NCBI GenBank assembly: GCA_029781115.1 | Contig: JAKOXG010000005.1 | Coordinates: forward strand, 1-64,000 | Source: Candidatus Cloacimonadota bacterium | GTDB lineage: Bacteria > Cloacimonadota > Cloacimonadia > Cloacimonadales > Cloacimonadaceae | Direction of reading: 5' to 3' | Length of the DNA stretch: 64,000 nt | Shown: one piece after another, positions 1 through 44,475 of the stretch | Numbering within the stretch: position 1 is the stretch's first letter | Layout: each line of letters begins with the position of its first letter | The notes under the pieces: generated by a model | Database searches by the model: none | What the model was told of the DNA's origin: nothing | The model's input: the letters and a program-made list of their open reading frames with translations, nothing else | Translations under genes and position numbers: made by a program

Positions 1-195
1 ACTACCTTGCAGTAGCACCCATCCGGTATTAGCCCAAGTTTCCCTGGGTTGTCCCGAACTCGAGGGTAGATAACCTACGTGTTACTCACCCGTTCGCCAC
101 TCTCTCAGCACCCGAAGGTGCCGATACCGTTCGACTTGCATGCCTAATCCACGCCGCCAGCGTTCGTCCTGAGCCAGGATCAAACTCTCCATCAT
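1..195 (-). rRNA. rrs: 16S ribosomal RNA, 5' end (partial)
   Basis: The reverse complement contains the universal 5' 16S primer site AGAGTTTGATCCTGGCTCAG at 188-169. It is followed by GACGAACGCTGGCGGCG, the GTGGCGAACGGGTGAGTAA block and the ACACGTAGG helix region. The primer site starts at E. coli position 8, so the mature 5' end is put near 195. The gene runs off the left edge of the window, so only about the first 195 nt are seen. It is useful for placing the organism. Confidence 0.97.
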
Positions 196-828: not shown

Positions 829-981
829 GCCTGCTGGCGGCGGTGTGGCAAGCGCCGGCTACCTTCTTTGGGTCGCTATGGCAAGCGACCATACTGGTGC
901 GGGCGGTCGCTGAACCGCCCGTACACAAGCGTGCGTGCACATGGTCGGTCCGGCGACCGACCCTACACCTAACACCTAACT
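829..981. repeat. Cluster of short palindromic repeat modules
   Basis: Four hairpin-forming modules in a row: a GGCGGCGGT..GCAA.CGCCGGCTAC unit (about 834-862), GGTCGCTATGGCAAGCGACC (871-890), GGGCGGTCGCTGAACCGCCC (901-920), and GGTCGGTCCGGCGACCGACC (943-962). They end in two heptamers of the CACCTAA type (964-981). The first and third modules recur at 53080-53170, and parts recur at 39208-39230 and 44540-44580. The block starts just past the stop of the 1825-residue gene and may also act as its transcript end, although no T-tract follows. Confidence 0.65.
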
Positions 982-3900
982 ACTTCATCAATATCATCTT
1001 GGACGTCTTTCCATACCCGGGCGCACTCATCCGAATCAGATACACGCCGCTGGCTATGGGACGTCCCTGCTTGTCCTTGCCATTGAAGACCTGTTTGTAG
1101 TGACCGGTGGCGTGGTCTTCATCCACCAAGGTGGTCACCAATTGGCCTTTGAGGTTATACACCTGCAGCTTCACCCGTCCCGGTTCCTTCACACTGTAAC
1201 TGATGGTAGTTTCAGGGTTGAAGGGGTTGGGGTAGTTGCCATTGAGGGCGGTAGCCGCCACGGGGATTTGGGGATCGTCTATGGGTGTGCCTTCTTCCAG
1301 GACAAAGTTCAGCGTGGTTGTCTGGTTGAAACTCACCACCACATCCGTCACGGTTTGGCTATGATGTTCGGCGGCAGATGCGGTCACCGTGTAGGTGCCC
1401 ACTGGGGCTTCAAGTGAGTAAGCTCCCAAGGCATCTGTGATGGCGGTGTAAAGGCCATCTTCCAGGCTCACGGTCGCCTCGCTGAGAGGCAGGTTGTTTT
1501 TCCCCAATACAGTTCCGGATATTTGGCCTCTCAATTCCGCCGCATCAATCATGAAAGTAGTCATGGGAAATTGTGCCGAGGGTGTGGTGTATGGCGGCGC
1601 TGCGGGATTATAGGTCACACTGTCAGACCAGATATACCGGCAGCGGTTATCTCCTTGAGTCTGACACCTGAAATAGTTTAAGGGATAGAGGATTGCGGGA
1701 CTGGCTTTATAGATCATCATCACCAGGTTTTCCTCGCCGGTGTAGGTATAGGGCTGGTCGAAGGTGAGGTTGACGGTGCCGAATCCGCTGTCGAAGTCTA
1801 CTGTGCCATCAAATACCTGCGTAAGCTGTGTCGAAGGGATCCAGCCGCTGCCGAGATTAGCCAGTGTGGTGCTTCCCAACCAGATGGTGATGGGAACGCC
1901 TTGTGGAGCGCAATTGAAGTTGGTATAAAACTGCAAGCCCACAATGTCGCCGTTTATTCCTACGATTTCATCGGGATAGTAGAGAGTTTGGTAGAGGGAG
2001 TTCATTCTGCCCGTATCCAAAGGCAAGACAGCATATTCGCTTCCATCGCCTATGGTGACGGCATACACTCCGCTTGGGTTTACCCAGAGGTTGAAGTTTG
2101 CCGTGCGGTTGTTGGCGTCAAATTCATCACCGTTCATTTCTATTTTGCCGTAGACGTCATAGTTTCCCGCTGTGGTTGGTGCCCAGGGGATCACTACTTC
2201 CAAGGTTTCCGAGCCGGCAATGGGTGGCCCGGTCACGCTGGCCAGCTCCACATCGCCGGGGCCCATGATCTTCACGGTATAATTGTCCTGCGCTACGGTG
2301 CCGTTGTTTTTGACCTTGATCGTATAGTTTGAAACCACGCCCACGGTAGGGAATTCGGTGCCGCTGATAGTCATGGCTCCCAGGTCGTTTTCCACCGATT
2401 CTTCAATGTAGGAAAAGGTGATCATGGGCAGTATATCCAAAGCCATGCCATCTTCAGGATCCATGGGGTTTAGCTCGCCGACCCAGCCAAACATATAGTG
2501 GGCACGCAAGCCATCCACCCTTTGACACTTAAAATTCTCGTTGGGGGTGTAGTCGTCTATGTTCAAGGGACGATACCACATCAGCACCAGGTTCCCCGGC
2601 ACATGTTCATAGGGCGTTTGCAGGTGGATGGTGATGGTATTTTCACCGCTGGGATACTCCACATTCCCATCATAGACCAAGGTCAACTCAGTAGCGGGGA
2701 TAAAGCCTGTGCTCAGCTCTTGTTCGCCTGTGCTCCCCAAGTAGATTTTGGTGGTTCCATCGGGCCTGTCGGTGGCAAAATCGTTATAGACCGCCAGAGA
2801 GGTGATGGTTCCGCTCGTAAAGCCCAGTTCATCCTGCGTATAGATGGCTTGATAGAGTGAGCCGCGGAAGTAGAAATCCACAGGATAGCGTGCCGGCGTA
2901 TCACCTGTGCCGATGGTAACAGTTTGGATATTGCTGGGATGGACGAATATCTCCATCGGATGGGTCTGGTCGTTTTGCGCCACTTCATCACCATCCAACA
3001 CCACTTTTCCACGGATCAGCATATATCCCGAGGTAGTGGGCGTCCAAGGCACCACCACATCCAAGACCTGCATGCTATTGATGGGCGGTCCTGCCACGTT
3101 AGCCAGCTCCACATCGCCGGGCCCGATGATCTTCACGCTATAGTTTTCCTGAGCCGCAGTGCCGTTGTTTTTGATACGGACAGTGTAGTTTGAACCTACG
3201 CCCACGGTGGCGTCATCTTCCCCGGAGATAGTCCAGGCAAACAGGTCGTTCACAACCGCTTGTGCGTTGTAGAAAAAGGTAGCTTGAGGAAACTGGGCAG
3301 AGACTGTTCCCTCGGGAGGGTTGAAGGGGTCTATAATCTCACTGTCATTGACATAATAAAGAGCACGGTTGACACTTCCCAACTGGCTCTTGAAATAGTT
3401 TGAATAAGAGTAGTAATCGGTATCCATGGGACGGTGGAACATCACCACCAGGTTCCCACCCGCGTGCACATAGGGCACCTGGAAGTTGATATTGATGGTG
3501 CGTTGACCCGCCGGATAGTCTATTTCCCCGTCATAGACCAAGACCATATCCGAGGCATCAAACCAGCCTGCATCAAGGTCTTCCAGATCGGTGCTTGCCA
3601 GATAGACTTTGGTGGGTTTGTTGAATATGCTGCTGTTAAACTGGGTATAGAGAGACATGGAGGTGATGACTCCACTGCCAAAACCCAGCTCATCTGCAAA
3701 GTAAAGACTTTGGTGGAGTGAGTTTTTGTAGTAGAAGTTCATGGGGTAATTGCTGATCCGGTCGCCTGCTCCGATGGTGATGGCATGGACGCCTTCAGGC
3801 TGGACGTTCAGCTGCAGCGGTTCTGTCTGGTTGTTACCGGCAATTGGATCACCAACCAGCTCCACCTTGCCATAGATGGTGAAGTTGCCTGCCGTGGTGG

Positions 3901-6457
3901 GCATCCAGGGAACAGATACCTCAAGCGTCTGCAGGCTGTTTATGGGAGGCCCGGCCACGCTGGCCAGCTCCACATCGTCCGGTCCCATCAGCTTTACGGT
4001 ATAGTTGGTTTGCGTCTCTGCATCGTTGTTTTTGACCATCACGGTAAAGGTGGTGGCTTCGCCCACGGTGGGCGTACGATTGCCACTGATGCCCATCGCC
4101 GCCAGATCGTCTGCTTGATGCGTATTAAGATGCAGCATGAGGTTTGGCATGCGGTTGTTCCGTTGTCCGGTTCCGGAGGGAGGGGAACCAACGTTAAACC
4201 AGTATTGATGCCTTTGCTCATCGATTTCTGTGTATCTATACAATTGACCAGGCAAGGTGCCACTGCCATAATTGGCTTCCACACCCACGATCAAGTTTCC
4301 GCCCGTGTAGGTGAAGGGCACATCCAGTTGGAAGCTGTTCCAGCCCAAGGTGTTGGGAATATAGTTGCCCTCGTGCACCAAGGTCATATCCGCCGTCAAA
4401 TACTGCCATCTGGTGATGCTCATCTCAGTATCGCCGGTGTTTTTGATCCAAATCTTGTAGGGAATGCTATAATCCGACGTTGCAGCACAATCCCAAGCCA
4501 ACATATCAATAAAGCCGGCTTCGCCTATCTGATCTGCGGTATAGAGCGTGGCGGAACGCATATAATCATGGGCTGTTGAAAAAGGATAATCTTGGGTTAA
4601 AATGCCGTCGCCGATGATGACGCTACCGGGGGTTAGTATCTCCGCAATCAACCCCACATCATAGTTTTGCCCTCCATAACTGATACGCAGGGTAGCGGTG
4701 ACCTCGCCAATGACGACGCTGTTTACGCTCACCGGAAGACGCAAAATCTGCCCCGGACCCAAAGAAGTGGGCAAAAGTGAAGCATCAAAGGAGAAATCGG
4801 CTGCATCTGGGCCCAAAATACTGATGTCACCTGCGGCAAGCTCTATCAGCCCTCCGCCCAAATTGGAAACAATCACATTCTGTGTTTCAGAAGTCACTCC
4901 ATTGTAAACAAAGCCAAAATCCAAGGTAGCGGGGGTGACACTGAAAACTGGTACGGTGGGCAACTCGCCAAACTGCATGCAGATATTGGGAAATACTGCT
5001 GCCAGGTAACCAATGGGTGGAGCGTTGGGATCTGGATTGCCGGCTTCGCTATCGCAGTGGAGGCTGCGGTTTTGCCCAGGTGTGGCAGTGCCGAGAAAGC
5101 ATTTGACGCCAGTGCCGTGGAAGTTATAGTCACGCTCCTGCGTGTTTTCATCCACAGCGATCACCAGGTTGTCCTCGTTGTTATACACAAACGGAGTATC
5201 CAGTTCTATCTCTATCCAGCCGGGGACTGCGGGAATACTCAGCCGACCCTCATAGACTTGCTGCATTGCGTGTGTGGGAGCCCAATCCATTGTGCTGGCA
5301 AACTCCTCCCGATCCGTGTGCCCCATATAAATCACCCAGTCATTGCTGTATGACAGCGAATCTGCTCCATTAAAAAAGTAGGAAATGCTTTCGATCAGCA
5401 TGGGCGAGCTCTGGGTGCCCGTGTTGGCAGCGTCAATCTCAGTTTGCAGAAAGATGCTCTGGGTGTAATTGTAATCGTAATAAGGCCAAATGGGAACCTT
5501 CTCTTGCTCTTCACCATTGCCTATCACTACCCCAGGAGCAAAAACAAAGCTGCTTGATGCCGGTGGAGAAAACCCTATCCCGTTTTTGGCTATCACCTGC
5601 CAAATATGAGTTCCGGTTTGCATATTACCGAGCACATATTGGTTACCCGGTTGATTTTCACTCACCAGCACCCCATCGATATACACGTCATAGCCGGTGA
5701 CGTCCGGAGTACCGTTGGGCAACATCCATTTCAGTGCCTCACCGCATCTGGCAAAACCATTATCCGCGGGATGCGTTATTTCAGGCGCCACGGGAGCTTG
5801 AGTATCTGTGAATACGAGCCTTATAGCTGCCTTGCTATTGGCTTCATTGGCCTCGGGCAGGTTATTGATGTCTATATCGGCGTCAACACTATGGTAATAT
5901 GCAGCTTCATAGGAGGCGCTGGTAGTACTGTAACCGCCCCAATACACTTGGTTGTTAGACCAACCGGGATTGGGAGTGTTTTCATGGACCGCCACCACCA
6001 GATTGTCTATATTGTTGTAGACAAAAGGGGTGTCCAAGGGGATTTCCATCCATTCTTGATTACCCTGCGGATAATAACTGAGCACGCTGCCGGCAAACAC
6101 CTGGGTAAGGCTGTCAGGCGATACAAAAGACGAAACAGGGTTAAAATTGGGATCATAACCGGGACCGGGATAAGAAGCAAAATAATCGCGGTCAGTGTGG
6201 CCGATACTGATAACCCAGTCATGGCTATAATCAAGACTCTCCGGCAGACCGGATCTCTTGAAAAAAGCGATCTTGGTGATCTCGCCCGCATGCTGGATCG
6301 TAGACTGCCTGTAGATCTGTTGAGTATAATTGTAGAAATAGCGAACCTCAACCGGTAAAAACCCTATAGACCAATTGAGGTCACCTATGATGAGCGTAGT
6401 GGCTCCCAGACCAAAGACCAGCAGCAGCAGTGCGGTCAAAGCTGTTAGACGTTTCAT
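980..6457 (-). CDS. Giant secreted repeat protein with C-terminal sorting (FlgD-like/Por) domain
   Basis: A 1825-residue exported protein. Residues 1-20 are a signal peptide (MKRLTALTALLLLVFGLGA). After it come six related modules beginning like IGDG/IGTGD..YP and containing a GNLV/DNLV(V/I)xV motif. Between them lie an fn3-like domain (about 221-308), a choice-of-anchor-D/ASH-like domain (about 503-608) and three CARDB/APHP-like Ig domains beginning DLAAMGISG (about 783-886), DLFAWTISG and DLGAMTISG. Near the end is a carboxypeptidase-regulatory-like Ig fold (GxVxGKNNLPLSEATV), then the C-terminal NPFNPETTISY...GQLV...SGVYLIR...KMILMK domain. In related phyla that domain directs type IX-like secretion or surface attachment. 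The start is supported by AGGAG 7 nt upstream of ATG. A sigma-54-like promoter lies about 200 nt upstream. The ligand or role is unknown; surface adhesion or matrix function is a guess. Confidence 0.9.
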   Translation of the reverse strand: MKRLTALTALLLLVFGLGATTLIIGDLNWSIGFLPVEVRYFYNYTQQIYRQSTIQHAGEITKIAFFKRSGLPESLDYSHDWVISIGHTDRDYFASYPGPGYDPNFNPVSSFVSPDSLTQVFAGSVLSYYPQGNQEWMEIPLDTPFVYNNIDNLVVAVHENTPNPGWSNNQVYWGGYSTTSASYEAAYYHSVDADIDINNLPEANEANSKAAIRLVFTDTQAPVAPEITHPADNGFARCGEALKWMLPNGTPDVTGYDVYIDGVLVSENQPGNQYVLGNMQTGTHIWQVIAKNGIGFSPPASSSFVFAPGVVIGNGEEQEKVPIWPYYDYNYTQSIFLQTEIDAANTGTQSSPMLIESISYFFNGADSLSYSNDWVIYMGHTDREEFASTMDWAPTHAMQQVYEGRLSIPAVPGWIEIELDTPFVYNNEDNLVIAVDENTQERDYNFHGTGVKCFLGTATPGQNRSLHCDSEAGNPDPNAPPIGYLAAVFPNICMQFGELPTVPVFSVTPATLDFGFVYNGVTSETQNVIVSNLGGGLIELAAGDISILGPDAADFSFDASLLPTSLGPGQILRLPVSVNSVVIGEVTATLRISYGGQNYDVGLIAEILTPGSVIIGDGILTQDYPFSTAHDYMRSATLYTADQIGEAGFIDMLAWDCAATSDYSIPYKIWIKNTGDTEMSITRWQYLTADMTLVHEGNYIPNTLGWNSFQLDVPFTYTGGNLIVGVEANYGSGTLPGQLYRYTEIDEQRHQYWFNVGSPPSGTGQRNNRMPNLMLHLNTHQADDLAAMGISGNRTPTVGEATTFTVMVKNNDAETQTNYTVKLMGPDDVELASVAGPPINSLQTLEVSVPWMPTTAGNFTIYGKVELVGDPIAGNNQTEPLQLNVQPEGVHAITIGAGDRISNYPMNFYYKNSLHQSLYFADELGFGSGVITSMSLYTQFNSSIFNKPTKVYLASTDLEDLDAGWFDASDMVLVYDGEIDYPAGQRTININFQVPYVHAGGNLVVMFHRPMDTDYYSYSNYFKSQLGSVNRALYYVNDSEIIDPFNPPEGTVSAQFPQATFFYNAQAVVNDLFAWTISGEDDATVGVGSNYTVRIKNNGTAAQENYSVKIIGPGDVELANVAGPPINSMQVLDVVVPWTPTTSGYMLIRGKVVLDGDEVAQNDQTHPMEIFVHPSNIQTVTIGTGDTPARYPVDFYFRGSLYQAIYTQDELGFTSGTITSLAVYNDFATDRPDGTTKIYLGSTGEQELSTGFIPATELTLVYDGNVEYPSGENTITIHLQTPYEHVPGNLVLMWYRPLNIDDYTPNENFKCQRVDGLRAHYMFGWVGELNPMDPEDGMALDILPMITFSYIEESVENDLGAMTISGTEFPTVGVVSNYTIKVKNNGTVAQDNYTVKIMGPGDVELASVTGPPIAGSETLEVVIPWAPTTAGNYDVYGKIEMNGDEFDANNRTANFNLWVNPSGVYAVTIGDGSEYAVLPLDTGRMNSLYQTLYYPDEIVGINGDIVGLQFYTNFNCAPQGVPITIWLGSTTLANLGSGWIPSTQLTQVFDGTVDFDSGFGTVNLTFDQPYTYTGEENLVMMIYKASPAILYPLNYFRCQTQGDNRCRYIWSDSVTYNPAAPPYTTPSAQFPMTTFMIDAAELRGQISGTVLGKNNLPLSEATVSLEDGLYTAITDALGAYSLEAPVGTYTVTASAAEHHSQTVTDVVVSFNQTTTLNFVLEEGTPIDDPQIPVAATALNGNYPNPFNPETTISYSVKEPGRVKLQVYNLKGQLVTTLVDEDHATGHYKQVFNGKDKQGRPIASGVYLIRMSAPGYGKTSKMILMK

Positions 6458-6655
6458 GTTTCTCTCCTGAATTTGCTTAAATTAATGTTCTATCCCGCAA
6501 AGCTGTAACCAGCCTTGCAGTCGATTTATAACCACCCGGCAACGCCGGGGAACAAAGCTCATCAAGGCAGAACCAAAGTACAAGCTACCATGTGTCAAAT
6601 CCTTGCTACTCGAGCAGCTTATCAATCTGAAACAGAGAGCGCACCGGAACAAATA

Positions 6656-6671
6656 TGCAAGTATCGTTCCA
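6656..6671 (-). promoter_or_regulatory. Sigma-54-type (-24/-12) promoter motif
   Basis: The minus strand reads TGGAACGATACTTGCA: GG and GC separated by exactly 10 nt, with the flanking T, ACG and TTGCA of the RpoN consensus (TGGCACG-N4-TTGCA). It lies 198 nt upstream of the 1825-residue gene. The match is seen; use by RpoN is inferred. Confidence 0.55.
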
Positions 6672-7427
6672 TTCTCTGTTAAATCCGGCTTGGAACCGGC
6701 TGATGTCGGAAATAAGGTCCGTGTTTTCACTTTTTCTTCTCCTTGGATTCATCCTTCTATATATTAAGTGTCAAAATCCCCGATTTTGAGATGCTGGAAT
6801 CGCAACTTTTTTTGATTTTGTGAAAATAGTTTTGGGCAGCAGTTTGTCAGAGGGCGCTTATTCTCTTTAGTAACAACAGATTAGGGAAATCTAAATCTCC
6901 TTGAAAGAAATGCCGCTTTTGGGGATGAAAACCGAATAATGGGGTGGACCTTATCTTCTTTTGATGTGGTTTGCTGTCTTGAAGCACAGCGAAGCAGAAG
7001 GTGCCCAGATACGGCCACTAAGCTAAAGAATATCTAAACAGCGCTGGCAGGGAACATTACAGTTTGGTATTATGTGCTGTAGTCGATAGTAAAAATGCTG
7101 CGTATACCTACCACCACGCAGAAGTATTATTCAGGTCCAGAATAGACCATATTCTACGACGTAATACATTAAAAGTTGAAGCCTTACTCCGCTGATTAGA
7201 CCCCATCTGTAGCACCTAATCCCAACGCGACAAGGTAGCATAAGGGAAAAATTACTTGACAATTATAGTCAGAATAAAAACAGTGCCTTTAGGCTGGTTG
7301 CCTAATAAATGAATAATGAGGAAATATGAGTGTCGTAACTACCTATAGAAGCAGCAAATTGGAATTTACACCAACATTAGAGATCCGGTAACTTTTAGGG
7401 TAACAATTACGATATGTGAGTGTATGA
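6672..7427. other. Intergenic AT-rich stretch
   Basis: No gene recognised in about 750 bp. A TTGACA at 7256-7261 ahead of the acyltransferase gene could be a -35 box, but no good -10 follows at 16-17 nt. The stretch is AT-richer by eye than the genes on either side and belongs to the AT-rich stretch that ends near 9.6 kb. Confidence 0.4.
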
Positions 7428-20994: not shown

Positions 20995-23163
20995 TTATTT
21001 CATCAGCATCATCTTGCGGGTTTGGCTGTGTTTGCCGGCTTCCAGGCGGTAGAAGTAGATGCCGCTGGGCATGATGTTGCCGTGGTTGTCTTTGCCATCC
21101 CACACCACTTTGTGATCGCCGGTGTCTTTGCGTTCGTTCACCAGAGAGCGCACCAATTGGCCTCTGAGGTTATAGATGCCCAGTTTGGCATCACCGGCTG
21201 CGGGCATGGTGTAGCTGATGGTGGTTTCAGGGTTGAAGGGGTTGGGATAGTTTTCATGGAGGATATCGATGGAAGGCTGCACCACCGGATCATCTGCATC
21301 CGGATAATGTCTTTGGAAAGCGATTTCCAGCTCCATAAACATGGTTCTCCCACCATCGTTATTGGTGTGGTATTGGGGAGCATTCACATGTGATCCCCAA
21401 GTGAAATCATCATAAAACATAAAGGCGATTTTTCCCATCCGATAGCCATTCTTGATACCCGTATAATAGACTCTGTCTGCGGGAAACACATACATGGGCT
21501 TGATGCCACTGAACTCAGGCGTTTCCTGGTTGTTGATGTTGATGGGCTCGCTCCAGGTCATGCCGTTGTCATTGCTGATTGAGATCCTGATCTCAGGCGT
21601 ATCGAAGAAATCGGAATACTCAGAGATGTTTACATCGTTGTAATAGCGCGCTCTACCGCTATCTTGCCACACCATCACCATCCACCCCCAATCGTTTGGC
21701 CTGGTCATTTTGATGTGGTTGTAGTGGAATATCATTGCGTTATCATGGGCGCTTGTATCCCAGTGTGGGAAAGGCCAGATGGTCTCGATGTCCAGATAGA
21801 GTTCTCCCCCAATTTCGACGTATTCGGGTTCTCCAAAAGGCTCCTCGGTATCCCAGGGTGTGTGGCAATCGTTGTAGTAGTCATCAGGATTTTGGACGGG
21901 GTGTACATCGTGGATTTCAATCTCACCGATGGAGGGATCAAATACCAATTGCTTCACATGGTGCAAGGCGGGGAAATAGACGTTATCTGTCGCTCTAAGT
22001 GACCAGAGGGCAGGCATATGCAGCCTTCCCAGATTGTCGACGACAGCATTCACATGGCCGGAATTGATGATGCCCCAATAAAGCTCTTCCGACGCATAAG
22101 GCGTATTACCCTCTTTTTTGAAATAACCTGTGGGGTCGGTGGGAGAAGTGGCCGGATTCCAGGTCGGGAAATTGCCCAGCCTGTCATAGGCAATCCAGTT
22201 TCCTTCGCCATAATTGTCACACTTCAACACCTGCAGATCGTTTTCGCCCAGATCGTTACCATCTGCATCCACGGCAATGCAATAGCCTATGTAGTAGATG
22301 TTTCCTGCCTCGTCGGCACAGATGGTGGTATAAGGCCTGCGCAGGACTTCTGTATCGACGTTCCAGAGGTCATACATGGGCACTGTTTTATAGTTCCAGG
22401 CGAGGTCTTCGTTTCTTTCGATCGTAGGTCCGTCAAAATCCGCATAGGCGATCAAGGCGTTTTCGCTGGGTCTGCCACCGCTGGCGTGGGTAATTTTATT
22501 GCGCATGGACACATAGATGCGGCGCATGCCATCGATGGGCGAAGGGCCAATCACGGCTGTAGGCCAGATAAATTCGTTGTCTTCCGTTACGACGCCGTTG
22601 GGTGCCGTGATGGTGGTGGGGTTATCGGCAAGATAAACGATATTGGTCCAAAGGCCGGTATTATCCCACATGAAGGCATCCCAAATTCCCAACGATTCCA
22701 GTGCATCATCCGTGGTATCTTCGTTTACGTGCCAAGCGTAGAAGGGTTTGCCGCTCACCGGATCGACCACCAAAGTGGGGAAGCCTTCGTGTTTTTGCGA
22801 GTTGGTGATCTCGCTGTTGTTCTTCACGTTACCTTGGCGATCCAGGTGCGTGAAGTAAATCCTGCGGTTGCTGCCCGCTTCCCGTCGACCGTGATAGGTC
22901 ATAAAGTATCCGCGGCCATACTCCGGCGGGATCATTCTCAAAGGCAGGCTGCTGTAACCTCCGATAAAGTAGTCGTAAAAGTTTGTCATGATAGGCAATG
23001 GCTCGCAGGAGAATTCGTAGTATGGTGCCTCCCGCGTGGCCGCTTTGGGCCTGGTGTGGGGCGTATCGATGGGCTTCATAGCCGGCTCCGGTGCCGGAAT
23101 CTCTGCATACACAAAGCTGAGCACCATGAACAGGGCTAACACGATTAAAGCAAATCTTTTCAT
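20995..23163 (-). CDS. Secreted beta-propeller-like protein with C-terminal sorting domain (paralogue 1)
   Basis: A 722-residue protein with signal peptide MKRFALIVLALFMVLSFVYA. The body is rich in W, Y and G with one Asp-box-like motif (SNDNGMTW, about 555), which suggests a sialidase-type propeller, although no catalytic set was identified. Residues about 640-722 form the NPFNPETTISYTMPAAGDA...SGIYFYRLEAG...KMMLMK sorting domain. It is a tandem paralogue of the 725-residue protein next to it (shared stretches include GYPT/GFPT..VDPVSGKP, ITAPNGVVT and FIWPTA). Ribosome-binding site AGGAGG. A sigma-54-like promoter motif lies 131 nt upstream. The function is unknown. Confidence 0.85.
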   Translation of the reverse strand: MKRFALIVLALFMVLSFVYAEIPAPEPAMKPIDTPHTRPKAATREAPYYEFSCEPLPIMTNFYDYFIGGYSSLPLRMIPPEYGRGYFMTYHGRREAGSNRRIYFTHLDRQGNVKNNSEITNSQKHEGFPTLVVDPVSGKPFYAWHVNEDTTDDALESLGIWDAFMWDNTGLWTNIVYLADNPTTITAPNGVVTEDNEFIWPTAVIGPSPIDGMRRIYVSMRNKITHASGGRPSENALIAYADFDGPTIERNEDLAWNYKTVPMYDLWNVDTEVLRRPYTTICADEAGNIYYIGYCIAVDADGNDLGENDLQVLKCDNYGEGNWIAYDRLGNFPTWNPATSPTDPTGYFKKEGNTPYASEELYWGIINSGHVNAVVDNLGRLHMPALWSLRATDNVYFPALHHVKQLVFDPSIGEIEIHDVHPVQNPDDYYNDCHTPWDTEEPFGEPEYVEIGGELYLDIETIWPFPHWDTSAHDNAMIFHYNHIKMTRPNDWGWMVMVWQDSGRARYYNDVNISEYSDFFDTPEIRISISNDNGMTWSEPININNQETPEFSGIKPMYVFPADRVYYTGIKNGYRMGKIAFMFYDDFTWGSHVNAPQYHTNNDGGRTMFMELEIAFQRHYPDADDPVVQPSIDILHENYPNPFNPETTISYTMPAAGDAKLGIYNLRGQLVRSLVNERKDTGDHKVVWDGKDNHGNIMPSGIYFYRLEAGKHSQTRKMMLMK

Positions 23164-23294: not shown

Positions 23295-23310
23295 TGCACA
23301 AATCGAGCCT
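23295..23310 (-). promoter_or_regulatory. Sigma-54-type promoter motif ahead of the 722-residue gene
   Basis: Minus strand AGGCTCGATTTGTGCA: GG-N10-GC. The 15-nt core GGCTCGATTTGTGCA also occurs at 26192-26178 and 27760-27746. The expected leader is about 120 nt; it holds a small perfect hairpin (ATCTG/CAGAT, 23216-23231). Confidence 0.6.
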
Positions 23311-23865: not shown

Positions 23866-26043
23866 TTACTGCATCAGCATCATCTTGCGGGTTTGGCTAT
23901 GTTTGCCTGTTTCCAGGCGGTAGAAATAGATGCCGCTGGTCACGCTGTCTCCGTTGTCATCCTTGCCGTCCCACACCACCCTGTGGTCGCCACCGGCTTT
24001 GGGTTCATTTACCAAAGTGCGCACCAATTGGCCTCTGAGGTTGTAGATGCCCAGTTTGGCATCACCGGCTGCGGGCATGGTGTAGCTGATGGTGGTTTCG
24101 GGATTGAAGGGATTGGGGAAGTTTCCCTTGAGAATGCCTATCCCCGGTGCTGAGGCCAGAGATTCGTCTGCATCTCCGGCAGGCTCAAAGGCGATGGTCA
24201 GCTCCATAAACATGACTTCTCCACCATCATTGTTGTCGTGGTAGGGGGGATAAAGCTCGTATGAACCCCAAGTGTTATCATCATAAAACATAAGTCCCAC
24301 CTTCCCCATGTGATAGTCTCTGCCCTCTTTGGGATTGTGGGCTACACCTGCATAAACGACCTCATCCACGGGATATACCCACATGGGAGTGAGATCAGCA
24401 AGTTGGGGAACATCCAGGCTGTTGAGGCAGATGGGGTCTTTCCAGGTCATTCCGTTGTTGGGACTTACAGCGATCATGATATCGGGTGAAAATCCAGCAC
24501 CAGGGTCATCTGACTGGTCGTAGAGCATGGCCCGATTACAATCTTGCCACACCATCACCGTCCAGCTATGCTGGTTTGGTTTGCTCATCTTGATATTGTT
24601 ATAATGAGCCATCATAGAGCTTTCATGGGCAGTCCTGTCCCAATGGCAAAAAGGCCACATGGCATTGATGTCCAGATGCCATTCTCCATCTACCTGGATA
24701 TACTCTGCCTCTCCCCAGGGCGGTTCGTTATCCCACGGATGGTAACACTCATAATCAGCGGTGTTATCAGGGTGCTTGATGGGATATACCTCATGAATGC
24801 TGACTTCGTTTGTGGCGGGATCAAAGATAAGCTGCTTCACATACTGCATGTTTGGATAGTATGATGTATCGGATGAAAGTGCCCAGAGGGCGGGGAAATG
24901 GATCCTTCCACTGCGATCGACAACGGCATTCACATGGCTGGAATTTTGGATCGCCCAGTAAAGATCGCCCGGTTCGTAGGGGTTGCCATCCTCGTCATAG
25001 AAGTGGGGTTCAACCCAGGGAGGTCCTTCCGGAATCCAGGCAGGGATATGGCCGGATGCGGTCATCATCGTCCAAGTGCCTTCGCCAAAGTTGTCACACT
25101 TCATCACATGCACATCAGGTTCGTCAAATGGGTTGCCATCCAGGTCACGGGAGTCATGATAACCAATATAGTAGATATTTCCTGCATCATCAGCGCAGAA
25201 GGTGGTAAATGGTCTGCGCCAGTTTTCCGTGTCTACATTCCAGAGGTCAAAGGTGGGCACAGAGGTGTAGTTCCAGACGGCCGGGATGCCTTCCTCTATC
25301 ATGTCTCCATCAATATCCGCATAGGCGATCAAGACGTTTTCACTGGGAAAGTTGTTGGGAACGTGACTTCTGGAGTTGCGCGTAGCCACATAGACACGGC
25401 GCTTGCCGGCTATCGGTGAGGGACCGATCGTGGCTGTGGGCCAGATAAACTGGTTATCGCCGGTGACTACCCCGTTGGGAGCAGTGATCTGGGTGGGGTT
25501 GTCTACAATCGTCTGGTAATTGGTAAACAGACCGGGGAAATCATCCATAAATGCATCTGCGACAAACACCACTTCTTGCTTGCCATCATGATCCACATCC
25601 GTGTGCCAGGCATACATGGGCTTGCCACTCACGGGATCAATAGTCATGGTGGGATAACCCTCAGTGGCGCTACTGTCAGATATTTCGCTGTTGGATATGA
25701 CGAACCCCGACTGATCCAGATAAGTGTAGTAGACTTTCCTGGTGCTGTCGGGAGCGCAGCGTCCTTGATAAACCATGAAATATCCGCCGCCGAATTCACC
25801 GGGGATCGCCCTCAGGGGCAAGCCGTTGTAACTTCCGATCATGTAGTCGTAAAAGCTGGTCATGATGGATATTGGTTCGCTGGAGAAATAGTAGTAAGGC
25901 GCATACTGCGAGGTCGCTCTGACTGTGGATTGGGGTATATCAATAAAGACAGGTTTTTTAGCCTGCGCCGGTGCCTGAATCTCCGCATACGCAAAGCTTA
26001 GCACCACGAGCAGGGCTATCGTGCTTAAAGCAATCTTTCTCAT
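23866..26043 (-). CDS. Secreted beta-propeller-like protein with C-terminal sorting domain (paralogue 2)
   Basis: A 725-residue paralogue of the neighbouring 722-residue protein, sharing its order of motifs throughout. Signal peptide MRKIALSTIALLVVLSFAYA. There is an Asp-box-like SPNNGMTW about residue 555, and the sorting domain NPFNPETTISYTMPAAGDA...KMMLMQ fills the last 80 residues. Predicted to be exported and anchored or released by a type IX-like route; the activity is unknown. The ribosome-binding site is GAGGAGGTGG. Its sigma-54-like promoter lies 134 nt upstream, only 13 bp past the end of the radical SAM gene. Confidence 0.85.
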   Translation of the reverse strand: MRKIALSTIALLVVLSFAYAEIQAPAQAKKPVFIDIPQSTVRATSQYAPYYYFSSEPISIMTSFYDYMIGSYNGLPLRAIPGEFGGGYFMVYQGRCAPDSTRKVYYTYLDQSGFVISNSEISDSSATEGYPTMTIDPVSGKPMYAWHTDVDHDGKQEVVFVADAFMDDFPGLFTNYQTIVDNPTQITAPNGVVTGDNQFIWPTATIGPSPIAGKRRVYVATRNSRSHVPNNFPSENVLIAYADIDGDMIEEGIPAVWNYTSVPTFDLWNVDTENWRRPFTTFCADDAGNIYYIGYHDSRDLDGNPFDEPDVHVMKCDNFGEGTWTMMTASGHIPAWIPEGPPWVEPHFYDEDGNPYEPGDLYWAIQNSSHVNAVVDRSGRIHFPALWALSSDTSYYPNMQYVKQLIFDPATNEVSIHEVYPIKHPDNTADYECYHPWDNEPPWGEAEYIQVDGEWHLDINAMWPFCHWDRTAHESSMMAHYNNIKMSKPNQHSWTVMVWQDCNRAMLYDQSDDPGAGFSPDIMIAVSPNNGMTWKDPICLNSLDVPQLADLTPMWVYPVDEVVYAGVAHNPKEGRDYHMGKVGLMFYDDNTWGSYELYPPYHDNNDGGEVMFMELTIAFEPAGDADESLASAPGIGILKGNFPNPFNPETTISYTMPAAGDAKLGIYNLRGQLVRTLVNEPKAGGDHRVVWDGKDDNGDSVTSGIYFYRLETGKHSQTRKMMLMQ

Positions 26044-26177: not shown

Positions 26178-26193
26178 TGCACAAATCGAGCCG
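26178..26193 (-). promoter_or_regulatory. Sigma-54-type promoter motif ahead of the 725-residue gene
   Basis: Minus strand CGGCTCGATTTGTGCA, GG-N10-GC. It shares the 15-nt core with the motifs at 23.3 and 27.75 kb. It starts 13 bp after the stop of the upstream radical SAM gene. Confidence 0.6.
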
Positions 26194-26205
26194 AAATAGA
26201 AGATA

Positions 26206-27609
26206 TTATTGGTTTCTGAGTGTGCTTTTGTAGAAGTCCTTTCTCAAAACGTAGGTTTCAAAGAGGGATTTGGCACTGCTGAAGATGATCCTGGGCTCCA
26301 AGGATTTGCTCTTGATGGCTTGGATAAAGAGGGGGATCAATTCGCGCCGCTTGGCCCAGTAGATCTTGAGGTAAGCTTTGGGCAAATACGCTTCCATCTG
26401 CTTGTAGGTCATGCCCAAGGGGTTGTAGACGCAGTGGGTGATGTCGTAATCCTCCCAATTGTAGTGCCGGATGCGGTTTTCGCGCTTGAGTCTGTCATAT
26501 ACGGCGGTGCCCGGGAAAGGTGTCATGACGGAGACGAGGATGAGACCGGGGAGCTTGCTGGCGAACTTGATGTTCTTTTCGATGATCTCGGGGGTGTCAA
26601 ATTCATCGCCACTGCCGAGGATAAAGAAGAAGCTGTAGCTGATGCCCAGGTTCTTCAGGATGCTCACGGCTTTCATGATCTGATCGGTGCTGATCCTTTT
26701 ATTGAGGCTTTCCAACACCTCCGGCACACCGCTCTCGATGCCGAATCCCATCAGGGTGCAGCCACAAGCAGCCAATCTGGCCACCAGCTCGGGCTTTCTG
26801 ATGACCATGTCTATTCTGGTCATGCAGGCGAAGGTAAACTTTAGCTTTTCCTCTTCCACCAAGTCACAGAAACGGGTGATCCAATCGGCATTGGTGGTGA
26901 AATTGTCGTCATGAATCCAGAACTGGTCGTATCCCCAAGAGATAAAGTCCTTGATTTCCCCGATCACGTCTTCCACTCTGCGTTGGCGGAAACTGCCACC
27001 ATAAAAAGCGGAGATGGAGCAATAGGAACACTTGAAAGGACAGCCCCTGCTGGAGACTATCTTGGGCGTGAAGCTGAACTCCGGGGCTACCAAGTCCATG
27101 GTGATCTTGGGAATGGAGTTGATGTCTTTGAGTAACACGATCTCTTCATCGTTGTAAAACTCACCGTCTTTCAGGTAAGCCATGCCGGTGATGGCGGGAT
27201 AGCGGTCTTTTGCTTCCAGAGCCTTGACAAGGGCGACAAAGGTCTCCTCTCCCTCACCGCGACAAACGAAGTCTACGCCTGTCTCTTGCAGGGTTTCCTT
27301 GTACATGAAGGTCACGTGGTGACCGCCGATCACGGTGATGATCTCGGGATGATGCTCTTTTACATAGCGAATCATTTCTCCGGCCAGGGGATAGACCGCC
27401 GTTACAGCGGTAAAGCCGATCACATCGGGTTTGTATCTGCGGATATAGCGGTGCAGGGTGTTGACATCTGCCTGAACCACTACAGACCTGTAGCCCGCAT
27501 CCCTGACTGCGGCAGCCACATACAAGACTCCCTGAAATATCTGGTGCCCTTTGCGCGTCCTCTGCAGGCCACCGGCGGTAGCCTTTGGCGAAACAAATAG
27601 AACTGTCAT
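26206..27609 (-). CDS. B12-binding radical SAM protein (paralogue 1)
   Basis: A 467-residue class B (BchE-like) radical SAM enzyme. Residues 1-130 are the cobalamin-binding-like Rossmann region (PDVIGFTAVTAVYP, VIGGHHVTF). The radical SAM cluster ligands are Cys190, Cys194 and Cys197 (GCPFKCSYC). A helical tail ends YVLRKDFYKS. An ATG at 27609 is preferred over one at 27687: AAGGAAGG lies 8 nt upstream and the N-terminus (MTVLFVSPKAT) then aligns with the adjacent paralogue (MTILLVSPTAT). It probably performs a radical modification or methylation of a lipid, cofactor or polyketide-like substrate; the substrate is unknown. Its own sigma-54-like motif lies 136 nt upstream. Confidence 0.88.
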   Translation of the reverse strand: MTVLFVSPKATAGGLQRTRKGHQIFQGVLYVAAAVRDAGYRSVVVQADVNTLHRYIRRYKPDVIGFTAVTAVYPLAGEMIRYVKEHHPEIITVIGGHHVTFMYKETLQETGVDFVCRGEGEETFVALVKALEAKDRYPAITGMAYLKDGEFYNDEEIVLLKDINSIPKITMDLVAPEFSFTPKIVSSRGCPFKCSYCSISAFYGGSFRQRRVEDVIGEIKDFISWGYDQFWIHDDNFTTNADWITRFCDLVEEEKLKFTFACMTRIDMVIRKPELVARLAACGCTLMGFGIESGVPEVLESLNKRISTDQIMKAVSILKNLGISYSFFFILGSGDEFDTPEIIEKNIKFASKLPGLILVSVMTPFPGTAVYDRLKRENRIRHYNWEDYDITHCVYNPLGMTYKQMEAYLPKAYLKIYWAKRRELIPLFIQAIKSKSLEPRIIFSSAKSLFETYVLRKDFYKSTLRNQ

Positions 27610-27745
27610 TGTGAAACCTTCCTTTTTACTCAACTGGCGAAGGAAACAGGATTCCGTGCCGATTTTTACTTGAAAGATATGCGCCAATGATTATCATCAA
27701 GACCATTACGTTCTCAATGTAGCCTTGGCTTGTGGGCACAGTGTA

Positions 27746-27761
27746 TGCACAAATCGAGCCA
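27746..27761 (-). promoter_or_regulatory. Sigma-54-type promoter motif ahead of radical SAM paralogue 1
   Basis: Minus strand TGGCTCGATTTGTGCA, GG-N10-GC, the closest of the three to the RpoN consensus. It begins 11-12 bp after the stop of radical SAM paralogue 2. Confidence 0.62.
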
Positions 27762-39291: not shown

Positions 39292-39319
39292 TTGACAAAT
39301 ATCCACACATTATTATAGT
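39292..39319 (+). promoter_or_regulatory. Promoter of the 1636-residue secreted protein
   Basis: TTGACA (39292-39297), a 16-nt spacer, TATAGT (39314-39319). This leaves a leader of about 240 nt before the ATG at 39565. Confidence 0.65.
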
Positions 39320-39564
39320 GTGCCCGTGAACAAAGGGTGGTGGTGCCATCATCTTTTATTAGTGGATGAGTGGGCTCACGCCGCATATTTATACCACGCA
39401 GCGCAGGGTGAAACACCATGAATTACGGGTTCTTCGGCCAACCGGCAAATTCCAGGGGCAAGACTTCTTGTCCTCGAAGGGGTCGTATGCCCATATTTAC
39501 CCCAACGCTGCATCCCCAACCCTTCAACCCTATTAAAATCAAACTGAATGAGGAGACATCTACT

Positions 39565-42500
39565 ATGAAAAGTCGTTTTGCATTTATCCTGCTGCTGGCC
39601 CTGATGCTGAGCGTCTTCAGTATCGGCAATGCAGCAACCGTGCAGATTGGCAGTGGAAGCGGGTCTACCGGATACCTTCCGTTATCTGGCTCATACGCCT
39701 ACAGTTACACTCAGCAAATCTATACCCAAGAACAGGTCAACTGTGCCGGAACCATCACCAAAATCCGCTTCTATTACGTTTCAGGCACGATCGACAACAA
39801 CAAGGATTTGACCATCTACTTGGGACACACGCAGAAAGATACTTTTTCCAGCACCGGCGATTGGGTTGTTTATTCAGACCTCACGCAGGTATTCAGCGGC
39901 GATGTGTCGTCTCTGATGCCTGCATCGACCTACGCCTGGATGGAGATCACGCTTTCTACTCCCTTTGCCTACAACAACATCGACAACCTGGTGCTTGCAG
40001 TTGATGAAAACACCCCTGACAGTGGAAATATGAGCTGGGGTGCCTTTACCAGCGGGAGCAGCACCGGTATCTACTATCGGGACAATACCACCAATCCTGA
40101 TCCCAGCAATCCACCTTATGCAAATGGAAGGACAAACATCATTAACCGCATCCAATTGGAGATCACAGCCACCGCAGCACCTCTGGCCCCCACACTTGTA
40201 TCCCCTGCAGATGGTGCTTATGCTTTTGATACCCACAGTCTGAGCTGGGCTTCGACGGTTGGAAGTGCCGGTGTGACCGGCTATGACGTCTACCTTGACG
40301 GCAACCTCGTAAGCAGCAACCAGACAGAGACCTCCTATCCACTCAGCCCCACGAAGGGACTGGGACAGCACACTTGGTATGTGGTGGCGCGCAACGAGCT
40401 TGGTGCTTCACCTGCGTCTGAGACCCGGACTTTTGAGCTTGTAGAGCCGGTGTTCATCGGCAACCAGAGTTACCTCAGACAAACCCCTTTCAACGCTTAC
40501 AACAGCTATGGACGCTCCCTGGCGCTCTATACCTCTGCTCAGATCGGGCAGGTGGGTCAAATCAGTGGCTTGGGTTGGTATGTATACACCCCCGGTCATG
40601 CCTCAATCCCTTACAAGGTATATATCAAACCCACCACCGCTGAAGAGGTTGCGCCCATGACCTGGAATGCTTTCACCGCGGAGGCTACTCTGGTGAAAGA
40701 AGGAAGCTACAGCTTCGACAGACAGGGCTGGCATACTTTAACACTGGATACGCCATTCACTTTCAGCGGTGACAACCTGCTCATCGGCGTGGAAGCCAAC
40801 TTTGGTGGCAATGGAGCCGGAAGCGGCGGCTATCCCAGCTTCTATCATTCTTCTTGCAGTGCAGGTTTACATCAATATTGGCATTCAAACAGTGCTCCTC
40901 CCACAGGTGACGGAACCCCGATCACATATTTGCCCAACCTGGCAGTGATCATGGCACCTGTTGCTGCTGAGCCCTCGTTTGTGCTCAGCCCCACAGAGTG
41001 GAATTACGGCCCCACGATCATCACCATCACAAGCTCGCGAACCTTCAGCGTGGGTAATGTGGGCGATGGAACTCTCAATATCACCGGCATCAGCCCCATA
41101 TCCGACGGGTTTTTCACCCTTGTGGATGCGCCTGAATTCCCTGTGGCTTTGACCTTTGGACAAACGGCCTCCTTCACCATCAATTATACTCCCACCGCCG
41201 TTGGCAATCATAGCGGCACCTTCACCATCTCGCATGCAGATAGCACGGCAGATCTCACGGTGAGCGGCGAATGTTTTGATCCCACCATCCATAATTATCC
41301 CTACACGGAAGGCTTTGAAACGGGACAGGCGCACGACACACCCGTGCAAAATTGGCTGCAGATTCTGGATAATGGCAAGACTAACTATTGGATGGCCAAC
41401 TCCGGCTATAGTGACCAAAACCGTAGCCCACGCAGTGGTGAATTCAACGCTTTCCTGAAGTGGGACAGCAACGCCTGGCTGATAAAACCCTTCCAGATGC
41501 AGGCGGATCAATCCTACGACGTGGAAGTGTGGGCGAGACAAAGCGTGAGCACTCCCGCATATGCCAAACTGGCGCTGTACTACGGTACAGAAGGTTCCAT
41601 CGCCGCCATGACCAACACCATAGTTGCTCAAACCGGGATCGTCAGCGGAGATTACCAAAAGCTGAAAGGCAGCTTCACGCCTGCCGAAAGTGGAGTTTAC
41701 TGGATCGGCATCCATGGTCTGACCTCCAACTCAACCTGGTATATCAGCATCGATGACCTCTCGGTGCAGCACACACCGGTAAATCCTGTCTTTACCCACA
41801 CTCCTGATGCTATCGGCTTTGGCTCCATTTACGCCAATACAACCACAGAATATCAGGATATCACCGTGACCAACACCGCCGGCGGCACGCTGAATCTGAC
41901 TGCGGCGGACATCAGCATCACAGGCCCGGGTGCGGCGATGTTTGAGATCGATCCCACTGGCCTGCCTCTGGCTCTCACTGCCGACCAGAGTGGCGTCATC
42001 CCGGTGCGCTACAACCCCACTGTTACAGGCAAACACAACGCTACCCTGCAGATGGCTTTTGCAGGAACCAACCATGAGGTCGCCTTGAGCGGCAGGGCGG
42101 TGGACGAGAATGCCCTCTTTGAGAGCTTTGAGGACACCGAGTTCCCGCCGCCCGAGTGGCATGGCAACTGGAGCCGCAACACCAGCCAAGCTCAACACGG
42201 AAGCGCATCCGCCTATAAATACGGTCATTACCTCAACCAATATGTGCTCAGCACACCCATGCTCATTATTGAAGATGACAGCATGCTCGACTTCTGGGCT
42301 TGCTGCGCCAATAGTGCCGGCATCCTTCAGGTGGTATATTCTTCAGATAGAACCAACTGGATTCAGATTGGCGCTAACATCACCTTTGCCGAAAGCAATA
42401 CCTGGTACTATCACGAGATAGATCTCAGCTTCCTGAGCGGCACCAATTACTACCTCGGCCTGCGCACCGGTTTGGTCAGTTACTGTGCTTACTATGTGGA

Positions 42501-44475
42501 TATGGTGGTTGGGCCGGAAGTCGCTCCCCTCCCGCCTGATGCGCCCGTCCTCATCTCTCCTGCGAATAATGCCAGCGGCGTGGCTGCCAATCCCACCTTC
42601 GCTTGGGATGATGCCATAACTGGCGGCAGGCCGGCATCTTACAAAATCTTCTGTGATGCCAACAACCCGCCCACCACGCAGATCGGCACCAGCACAACCT
42701 GCAGCTTCACCTCGCCGATTAACTACCCCTACGACAGCACTTTCTATTGGACGGTAACAGCTGCGAATGATCTGGGAGAAAGTGAGCCCGCCACGCCCTT
42801 CAGCTTTACCACCCGCATCGATCCTATCATTTATGACCTGCCCTGGCTGGAGGATTTTACCGCCACCGCCTTCCCGCCTGAGGATTGGGCTCGCTACACG
42901 GGCTTGTATCCCACAGAAACCCTCACCCCATACACAGGTGGATGGACGAGAAGAAACTTTGACGGCAATCCTGCCGCCAGCCTCAATATCTATAGCACTC
43001 CGGTCAGGTATTGGTTAGTCACGCCGCCCATTTCTATTCCGGCTGGAGCTTACCGGCTGAGCTTCGATCTGGCTCTCACTCAACGCAACAACTCAAATCC
43101 GGTTGATCCGACCCTGCAACAAGATGACAGGTTCATTGTCTTTATCGCCGATAACCCCACCATGGTTGACGCCACGCCCCTGAGAGAGTGGAACAACACC
43201 GGCTCTCCTCATGTGTATAACACTATCTCGCACACGGGCACAAAGCAGTATTTAGACCTCAGCAGCCACAGCGGTGTCAAATACATCGCCTTCTACGGTG
43301 AATCAACCGTCTCCGGAGGAGGAGGCAGCGTCTACGTGGACAATGTCTTGGTAGGTGAAACGCCTGCTACAGCCATTTTTGCCTATACACCTGAGGCAAT
43401 TGATTTTGGCCAGGTGGCCTACAACACTCCCAGCGAAGCGGTGAATGTAACAGTCACAAACACCGGCTCAGGTGTCATCAATCTCAGCGCATCTGACATC
43501 AGTATTATTGGCACCAATGCAGCTGATTTTGCCTTTGCCGCCAGCAACCTGCCGGCAAGTTTGGCCATGGGCGAATCCGTGAGCATCCCCGTGAACGTGC
43601 AAAGCAGCACCGAAGGCAACATATCCGCCACCCTGCGTTTAGCTTACAACGCTGAAAACTACGACGTGGCGCTGAGTGCCTTTGTGCTGCTGGAAGGAAT
43701 GGCAGTGGTGGGCAACGGAACGAGCTACAATAATCACTATACCAATCCATCGGTCTATGGTAGTTACCACAGATATGGCCGTGAGCAATACATCTTGACT
43801 GCCGCTGAATTGACCGCAGCAGGTGTGCAACCCGGCCTGATCAACTCCATCGGCTTCAACGTCTTTGCTCCCAACGACTGCGCAGACCTTGCCAACTTCA
43901 GCATCAGCATACGCGCCATCAGCGACACGGAATTTGGGAACTCCAGCTTCTTTACCGGTCTTACCCAAGTGTATGCTGTAGACACCTACACCCCCGTATC
44001 CGGTTGGAATCAGCACGTCCTCACCACACCTTTCACCTGGAACGGCTCCTCAAACCTCGTGATCCAGACCAGCTTCGGCAGGTCAGCTTCTTATACGCAA
44101 AACGCCAGTGTCTATTACACCGATACTTCGCCCGCAAAGCGAACCTTGTTCTACCGTCATGACACCACTGCCTGGGATACGGTGGGCACAGGAACGTTAA
44201 GCTATAATCGCCCTAATATAGCGCTTCTCATGGATACCGAATCCAGTGTTCTGATTCCACCTGTGGTGCAGGCGTCTATCTCTGGCTCGAATGTGGTCTT
44301 GGAGTGGGAGCCGGTATTTGGTGCTACCAGCTATCTGGTCTACGCCTCGGATGATCCCTGTAACTTTGGCTCTGATCCCATAACCACCGTTACCACCAAT
44401 AGCTGCACCCTGCCCGCAACAGCAGCCATGCGCTTCTTCAGGGTAGTCAGCAGTAACGAACTCTTTGGTGAATAA
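39565..44475 (+). CDS. Giant secreted repeat protein lacking a C-terminal sorting domain
   Basis: A 1636-residue exported protein. The start at 39565 is chosen over an upstream in-frame ATG (39418) because AGGAG lies 9 nt before it and the signal peptide MKSRFAFILLLALMLSVFSIGNAA begins there. The first module (about 25-200; SYTQQIYTQEQ, LGHTQKDTF, NNIDNLVLAVDENTP) matches module 1 of the 1825-residue protein. After it come fn3-like domains, at least three choice-of-anchor-D-like domains (VFTHTPDAIGFGS, IFAYTPEAIDFGQ), choice-of-anchor-J-like jelly rolls (EDFTATAFPPEDWARY, ESFEDTEFPPPEW), and a final fn3-like domain ending in ELFGE. The NPFNP sorting domain is absent, so it may be released, or anchored differently. 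No neighbour shares its transcript. Confidence 0.87.
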   Translation: MKSRFAFILLLALMLSVFSIGNAATVQIGSGSGSTGYLPLSGSYAYSYTQQIYTQEQVNCAGTITKIRFYYVSGTIDNNKDLTIYLGHTQKDTFSSTGDWVVYSDLTQVFSGDVSSLMPASTYAWMEITLSTPFAYNNIDNLVLAVDENTPDSGNMSWGAFTSGSSTGIYYRDNTTNPDPSNPPYANGRTNIINRIQLEITATAAPLAPTLVSPADGAYAFDTHSLSWASTVGSAGVTGYDVYLDGNLVSSNQTETSYPLSPTKGLGQHTWYVVARNELGASPASETRTFELVEPVFIGNQSYLRQTPFNAYNSYGRSLALYTSAQIGQVGQISGLGWYVYTPGHASIPYKVYIKPTTAEEVAPMTWNAFTAEATLVKEGSYSFDRQGWHTLTLDTPFTFSGDNLLIGVEANFGGNGAGSGGYPSFYHSSCSAGLHQYWHSNSAPPTGDGTPITYLPNLAVIMAPVAAEPSFVLSPTEWNYGPTIITITSSRTFSVGNVGDGTLNITGISPISDGFFTLVDAPEFPVALTFGQTASFTINYTPTAVGNHSGTFTISHADSTADLTVSGECFDPTIHNYPYTEGFETGQAHDTPVQNWLQILDNGKTNYWMANSGYSDQNRSPRSGEFNAFLKWDSNAWLIKPFQMQADQSYDVEVWARQSVSTPAYAKLALYYGTEGSIAAMTNTIVAQTGIVSGDYQKLKGSFTPAESGVYWIGIHGLTSNSTWYISIDDLSVQHTPVNPVFTHTPDAIGFGSIYANTTTEYQDITVTNTAGGTLNLTAADISITGPGAAMFEIDPTGLPLALTADQSGVIPVRYNPTVTGKHNATLQMAFAGTNHEVALSGRAVDENALFESFEDTEFPPPEWHGNWSRNTSQAQHGSASAYKYGHYLNQYVLSTPMLIIEDDSMLDFWACCANSAGILQVVYSSDRTNWIQIGANITFAESNTWYYHEIDLSFLSGTNYYLGLRTGLVSYCAYYVDMVVGPEVAPLPPDAPVLISPANNASGVAANPTFAWDDAITGGRPASYKIFCDANNPPTTQIGTSTTCSFTSPINYPYDSTFYWTVTAANDLGESEPATPFSFTTRIDPIIYDLPWLEDFTATAFPPEDWARYTGLYPTETLTPYTGGWTRRNFDGNPAASLNIYSTPVRYWLVTPPISIPAGAYRLSFDLALTQRNNSNPVDPTLQQDDRFIVFIADNPTMVDATPLREWNNTGSPHVYNTISHTGTKQYLDLSSHSGVKYIAFYGESTVSGGGGSVYVDNVLVGETPATAIFAYTPEAIDFGQVAYNTPSEAVNVTVTNTGSGVINLSASDISIIGTNAADFAFAASNLPASLAMGESVSIPVNVQSSTEGNISATLRLAYNAENYDVALSAFVLLEGMAVVGNGTSYNNHYTNPSVYGSYHRYGREQYILTAAELTAAGVQPGLINSIGFNVFAPNDCADLANFSISIRAISDTEFGNSSFFTGLTQVYAVDTYTPVSGWNQHVLTTPFTWNGSSNLVIQTSFGRSASYTQNASVYYTDTSPAKRTLFYRHDTTAWDTVGTGTLSYNRPNIALLMDTESSVLIPPVVQASISGSNVVLEWEPVFGATSYLVYASDDPCNFGSDPITTVTTNSCTLPATAAMRFFRVVSSNELFGE

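Follow-up and report, generated by a model that had tools for sequence, protein, structure and literature searches.

A probable sigma-54 promoter ahead of a large T9SS cargo gene in Cloacimonadota, and the association of such sites with genes for sorting-domain proteins

In a 64,000-nt stretch of a Candidatus Cloacimonadota genome, hereafter the window, the element TGGAACGATACTTGCA preceding the gene of an 1825-aa T9SS-tailed protein is most probably the -24/-12 region of a real sigma-54 promoter, part of a regulon that would cover about a fifth of the T9SS-tailed genes. Judged from sequence, no other reading of this motif comes close in likelihood to a sigma-54 promoter, because of the enrichment of such sites ahead of tailed genes, their N10 spacing, the replication of this association in a second genus (G012), the presence of RpoN and of activators in the genome, and the conservation of the site at the orthologous locus L248. 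Since the same signal stands ahead of about a fifth of the export-tagged proteins, these observations suggest that one activator-dependent sigma factor turns on part of the cell surface. Promoters of this type are known already; the novelty lies in finding them linked to many T9SS cargo genes of this lineage.

Table 1. Features of the window discussed in the text.
Feature	Coordinates	Strand	Basis or remark
Sigma-54-type -24/-12 element TGGAACGATACTTGCA	6656..6671	-	Consensus match, matrix scores, orthologue conservation
1825-aa protein, signal-peptide-like start and PF18962 T9SS sorting tail; proposed target gene	980..6457	-	ORF, Pfam
Predicted 188-nt leader	6458..6645	-	Start placed 12 nt after the -12 C
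82-aa ORF overlapping the motif	6482..6730	-	ENGTILA encoded across the motif
Dispersed conserved module	6738..6836	-	TCAAAAT-N5-ATTTTGA palindrome in the window copy
Sigma-54-type site AGGCTCGATTTGTGCA	23295..23310	-	Ahead of the 722-aa tailed protein
722-aa protein with PF18962 tail	20995..23163	-	
Sigma-54-type site CGGCTCGATTTGTGCA	26178..26193	-	Ahead of the 725-aa tailed protein
725-aa protein with PF18962 tail	23866..26043	-	
Sigma-54-type site TGGCTCGATTTGTGCA	27746..27761	-	Ahead of the radical SAM gene
B12-binding radical SAM protein, no tail	26206..27687	-	493 aa from TTG
Sigma-70-like promoter TTGACA-N16-TATAGT	39292..39319	+	Ahead of the 1636-aa protein; contrast case

The sigma-54 consensus is TGGCACG-N4-TTGCW. 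Read 5' to 3' at 6671..6656, TGGAACGATACTTGCA departs from this consensus by one mismatch among the 12 specified positions, and its GG-to-GC distance is exactly 10 nt; the RpoN-like motif claimed in the initial annotation is thus present, on the minus strand, with 11 of 12 specified positions and the N10 spacing. It lies 214 nt ahead of the ATG of the 1825-aa gene, within a 970-bp intergenic region bounded by this minus-strand gene and a plus-strand ORF at 7428, and its score is reached in 1 of 2000 dinucleotide shuffles of that region, either strand being considered. A single match is by itself weak proof, and many such matches are noise, because sequences with at most one mismatch to the consensus number 22 in the whole genome, while the consensus reversed as a control gives 13. 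The product of the proposed target gene carries its PF18962 match at residues 1742-1822 of 1825 (35.7 bits, for a cut-off of 27). The 5' end of a 16S rRNA gene is located at the window edge (1-195, minus strand).

Two other genes of the window code for PF18962-tailed proteins, and the expectation that all of its secreted proteins with the sorting domain carry the motif is borne out for 3/3 PF18962 genes, since the 722-aa, 725-aa and 1825-aa genes are each preceded by a site. The sequence GGCTCGATTTGTGCA is present in three copies, all on the minus strand, within the sites of the 722-aa, 725-aa and radical SAM genes. Genome-wide, GGNNCGATNNNTGCA has 6 matches, 4 of them ahead of tailed genes and 1 ahead of the radical SAM gene, while the sixth, by its coordinates, lies inside a tailed-gene frame on the opposite strand. 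Independence of TGGAACGATACTTGCA from local duplication, as asserted in the initial annotation, stands with respect to the local GGCTCG copies but not with respect to a gene of the same family on contig C3, which has the sister site TGGAACGATATGTGCA. The 1636-aa protein, for which the Pfam scan returned no PF18962 match, starts at ATG 39565 (residue 50 of the ORF 39418..44475) and does have the TTGACA/TATAGT promoter that had been ascribed to it. Among untailed genes of the G000 control set, the radical SAM gene, which with its site spans 26206-27761 (minus strand), has the top-scoring sigma-54-type site.

The genome to which the window belongs (G000; 2.25 Mb, 22 contigs, 99% complete) contains 96 PF18962 matches, and upstream stretches were taken for all 96; 7 of these run off contig ends and 5 belong to genes without a signal-peptide-like start, leaving 84 usable genes. 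Gene calling used a simple longest-ORF rule, and a crude hydrophobicity rule served to recognise signal peptides. An untrained matrix, the weights of which were set by hand from the consensus, was applied to the region from -300 to -10 with a score of at least 11. On the sense strand it detects sites at 16/84 tailed genes (antisense, 3) vs 3/265 untailed genes (one-sided Fisher P = 2e-8), the latter being drawn from control stretches at round coordinates that were chosen after the genome match lists were known. At the same threshold, sites occur at 3/144 untailed genes whose upstream gap is 60 nt or longer (P = 1.4e-5 against the tailed genes), and at 1/99 of those that also have a signal-peptide-like start. 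Other thresholds give, for the 84 tailed vs the 265 untailed genes, 27 vs 21 at a score of 9, 21 vs 14 at 10, 9 vs 3 at 12, and 8 vs 1 at 13.

The enrichment also depends sharply on the spacing. When the untrained matrix is scanned with spacings from N6 to N15, N10 yields the 16 tailed genes and every other spacing 0 to 5; with the plain pattern TGG..TGCA at spacings N5 to N16, N10 is found ahead of 13/84 tailed genes (antisense, 0) and the others ahead of 0 to 5 each. The stricter pattern TGGMW-N6-TTGCA precedes 8/84 tailed vs 1/281 untailed genes and has 61 matches in the genome (reversed control, 7), of which 0.33 would be expected ahead of tailed genes. The genome-wide enrichment of GG-N10-GC motifs at tailed genes, proposed as a check in the initial annotation, is therefore found, and it is specific to both strand and spacing. 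A tail is nonetheless no general sign of sigma-54 control, because recognisable sites occur at only 16 (untrained matrix) to 22 (fitted matrix) of the 84 usable tailed genes; moreover, a site of this type also precedes an untailed gene, that of the radical SAM protein.

A matrix fitted to the tailed genes of G000 has the consensus TTTGG(A/C)(A/T)(C/T)(G/A)A(T/A)T(C/T)TTGCAT and finds sites at 22/84 tailed genes, a proportion that is biased because the matrix was trained on those same genes; 20 of the 22 leave-one-out scores exceed 12, a level also exceeded by 3/265 untailed genes, the radical SAM gene included. No site is found with it at the other 62/84 tailed genes. The 22 sites lie 50 to 224 nt from the gene start and are mostly, though not wholly, independent of one another. 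Alignment of their upstream regions gives two pairs at E 1e-3, L107/L122 and L045/L049, the latter being alignable away from the site; independence is incomplete because L094 and L111 have a local 15-mer in common and because L122, L086, L092 and L107 form one gene family. Upstream of the 22 sites, no word or dyad that could serve as an activator-binding site is in common beyond chance.

Three other genomes were sampled: G012, from another genus of the same family, G019, an AT-rich genome of another family, and G020, also of another family. Stretches of G012 and G019 were picked for their tailed genes, independently of motifs, whereas for G020 contigs 1-20 were each taken over their first 20 kb or in full. 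Counts are limited to genes that lie wholly within a stretch and have 150 nt or more ahead of them, tails being recognised with a profile from 30 sequences, so that the tailed genes counted represent 37 of the 123 matches present in G012 and 16 of the 60 in G019. The enrichment replicates in the second genus, where the untrained matrix (at least 11) detects 5/37 tailed vs 0/123 untailed genes (P = 5e-4) and GGMW-N6-TTGC 12/37 tailed vs 3/75 untailed genes with a gap, other spacings giving 0 to 5; with a single-sequence tail profile the latter figures are 13/53 vs 3/75 controls. With the strict TGG..TGCA pattern, N10 does not stand out in G012 (4/37, with N9 also at 4). The enrichment is weak in G019, with 1/16 tailed vs 0/126 untailed genes at a score of at least 11, 2/16 vs 0/126 at 10 or more, and 3/16 vs 1/126 for the fitted matrix above 14. 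It is absent in G020 with the untrained matrix at 11 or more (0/14 tailed vs 5/258 untailed). The association of site and tail looks restricted to a lineage.

Conservation at the locus itself is seen in one orthologue, L248, the product of which shares 85% identity across its first 222 aa and which carries TGGAACAGCGCTTGCA in register with the window site. The -24 and -12 elements are conserved there: TGGAAC and CTTGCA are retained while the four intervening bases are all different. A second site of L248, about 640 nt 5' of the ATG, scores higher with the fitted matrix (14.2 vs 10.7); L248 and L254 are apparently one and the same locus. In same-genus genomes, genes for proteins considered secreted from their signal-peptide-like starts, L255 and L258 of G002 and L257 of G005, have TGGAATGAATTATGCA, TGGAACGATATTTGCT and TGGAACGGTTTGTGCT at 156, 181 and 303 nt before the ATG, respectively. 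Among named genomes, one related locus was found, from a Candidatus Cloacimonadota MAG.

The motif overlaps an 82-aa ORF with a Shine-Dalgarno-like AAGGAG, and the 16 nt could have been kept as a coding part of a real small protein rather than as a promoter. We consider this improbable, even though L107/L256 and L254 have small ORFs like it, each with a start and a Shine-Dalgarno-like sequence (and with GTMFA and GTALA), and the GGN frame is free of stops near 6/22 sites, four of them in the family of the 1825-aa gene, vs 1/22 for each of the other frames. At 16/22 sites a stop is located nearby in the GGN frame. Furthermore, third codon positions do not behave as in a gene, since in the fitted matrix T13 is near-invariant and position 16 is either A or T, and the changes between the window and L248 include first and second codon positions.

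A comparably small chance is left to transcription of the gene from elsewhere, for instance from the module at 6738-6836, in which case the motif would be the site of another protein or a leftover. The module does recur in the genome and in the genus, with copies at L253, L256, L259, L250, L251, L254 and L257, and at L251 and L259 it stands directly 5' of a secreted ORF of 66-69 aa without any sigma-54-type site in between; it is a possible second promoter or activator site, and its palindrome a candidate activator-binding site. However, a search of the collected loci did not find the module at most of the site-bearing tailed genes, and the GG-N10-GC geometry, the strand bias and the match to the extended consensus are those expected of sigma-54, in a genome that encodes RpoN. 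Mere coincidence, for which the whole-genome count of near-matches could be invoked, is the least credible option in view of the position, strand and orthologue conservation of the motif, the gene-class enrichment and the rarity of its score in shuffled sequence.

The initial annotation had made its proposal depend on RpoN, and one RpoN is found in G000 (gene around C17:29370), in which the three Pfam domains for activator interaction, core binding and DNA binding are all present. A Sigma54_DBD match occurs in 21/21 genomes, the own genome included; the T9SS component SprA_N is present in G000 and, counting it, in 20/21. PF00158 identifies three strong sigma-54 activators in G000, along with two weak matches. 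The activator of C16 is a 1425-aa protein of TPR-GAF-AAA+-Fis architecture with the loop GSFTGA, and that of C7 is an NtrC-type response regulator with the loop GAFTHA, the gene of which adjoins a histidine kinase gene. The third, on C20, is a response regulator with a sigma-54 interaction domain (L040 1021-2553, minus strand). GAFTGA is the loop motif through which activators contact sigma-54. Inspection of the C20 sequence revealed no recognisable GAFTGA-like loop, and this activator may for that reason not contact sigma-54, which makes those of C16 and C7 the better candidates.

RpoN-RNA polymerase would then bind the TGG..TGC element as a closed complex, to be opened on a signal by an AAA+ enhancer-binding protein, presumably that of C16 or C7 in preference to that of C20. 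By convention, transcription starts 12 nt after the C of the -12 element. The start would accordingly fall near 6645, and the predicted mRNA of the 1825-aa T9SS cargo protein would begin with a 188-nt leader. The last ~125 nt of this leader (6458-6585, minus strand) contain two hairpins, CCCCGGC-N3-GCCGGG and GCAAGGCU..AGCNUUGC, that are conserved in seven related genes (the window gene, L248, L107, L097, L086, L255 and L258). The window leader has a fold z-score of -2.9; 3/15 pairs are changed on both sides, the covariation term is slightly unfavourable, and an Rfam search gave no family match and none near the gathering score. This conserved leader is a candidate cis-regulatory RNA. In this genome, the putative regulon would take in roughly one in five genes that code for a T9SS C-terminal sorting domain, plus a few others.

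A wider proposal, which we advance tentatively and only as a whole, is that sigma-54 acts mainly as a secretome sigma factor in this family of Cloacimonadota, with T9SS cargo as its largest target class. Each cargo gene would have its own -24/-12 promoter, and one or two enhancer-binding proteins, the best candidate being the 1425-aa TPR-GAF-AAA+ protein, would switch all of them together, such that one signal could change the set of surface proteins and proteases. For the genes related to that of the 1825-aa protein, the structured leader might then add a further level of control.

Cloacimonadota are an uncultured phylum of anoxic habitats. Gene regulation in this phylum is seemingly little known, open-access literature searches having given nothing, and a motif marking roughly one in five T9SS cargo genes would be a testable handle on the deployment of surface proteins and proteases. 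T9SS is reported to be possibly present in Cloacimonadota (PMC11285876), and secreted peptidases are described in these bacteria (PMC8542988). That sigma-54 can control an operon for a T9SS adhesin is prior knowledge: in Flavobacterium psychrophilum, the remFG-sprCDBF operon, which encodes the adhesin SprB secreted by T9SS, is driven by a sigma-54 promoter that mutagenesis has confirmed, and exported proteins belong to the SM4 (sigma-54) regulon (PMC9723704). The likeness extends to a -24/-12 promoter for T9SS cargo, exported targets and three PF00158 activators, but the targets there are one adhesin operon, chaperones and envelope-stress genes (PMC9723704), whereas here they are many sorting-domain cargo genes, in another phylum and predicted from sequence only. 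If true, sigma-54 control of T9SS cargo would extend from one Flavobacterium adhesin operon to many genes of another phylum. More broadly, the abstract of Francke et al. (2011) presents sigma-54 as a controller of the bacterial exterior, and the present association similarly ties sigma-54 promoters to genes of environmental contact; that abstract lists exopolysaccharides, flagella, lipids, lipopolysaccharide, lipoproteins and peptidoglycan, and does not name T9SS cargo (PMC3162934). A dedicated T9SS regulatory route is also described for PorXY-SigP of Porphyromonas gingivalis, in which an ECF sigma factor acts on machinery genes, unlike the action of sigma-54 on cargo proposed here (PMC4800418). 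The main text of a 2025 survey of sigma-54 regulons contains neither Cloacimon- nor type IX as a term (PMC12316311). No paper on the association appears among the open-access papers listed for Cloacimonadota with sigma54, T9SS or sorting domains, or among those listed for T9SS with sigma54 or RpoN.

A specialisation of the regulon in peptidases was considered and rejected, because peptidase domains do not differ clearly between genes with and without a site. The scan covered 21/22 site genes (19 over the N-terminal ~300 aa and 2 whole; L106 left out), and peptidase domains are present in 7 of them: C25 in L114, L109, L091 and L053, M14 in L137, M1 in L043 and M6 in L112. For the 62 site-less genes, the 25 commonest of 37 families include C25 propeptide in 4 genes, S8 in 2, and C25, M14, C10 and M28 in 1 each. 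In G012, peptidase domains occur in 4/10 of the best-scoring vs 5/10 of chosen low-scoring tailed proteins. Finally, the top untailed matches of the two more distant genomes, scoring 21.8 in G019 (L238, before 8633, plus strand) and 19.1 in G020 (L282, before 616, plus strand), are located at -43 and -39 of lipoprotein-like genes, which are possibly a sigma-54 target in common.
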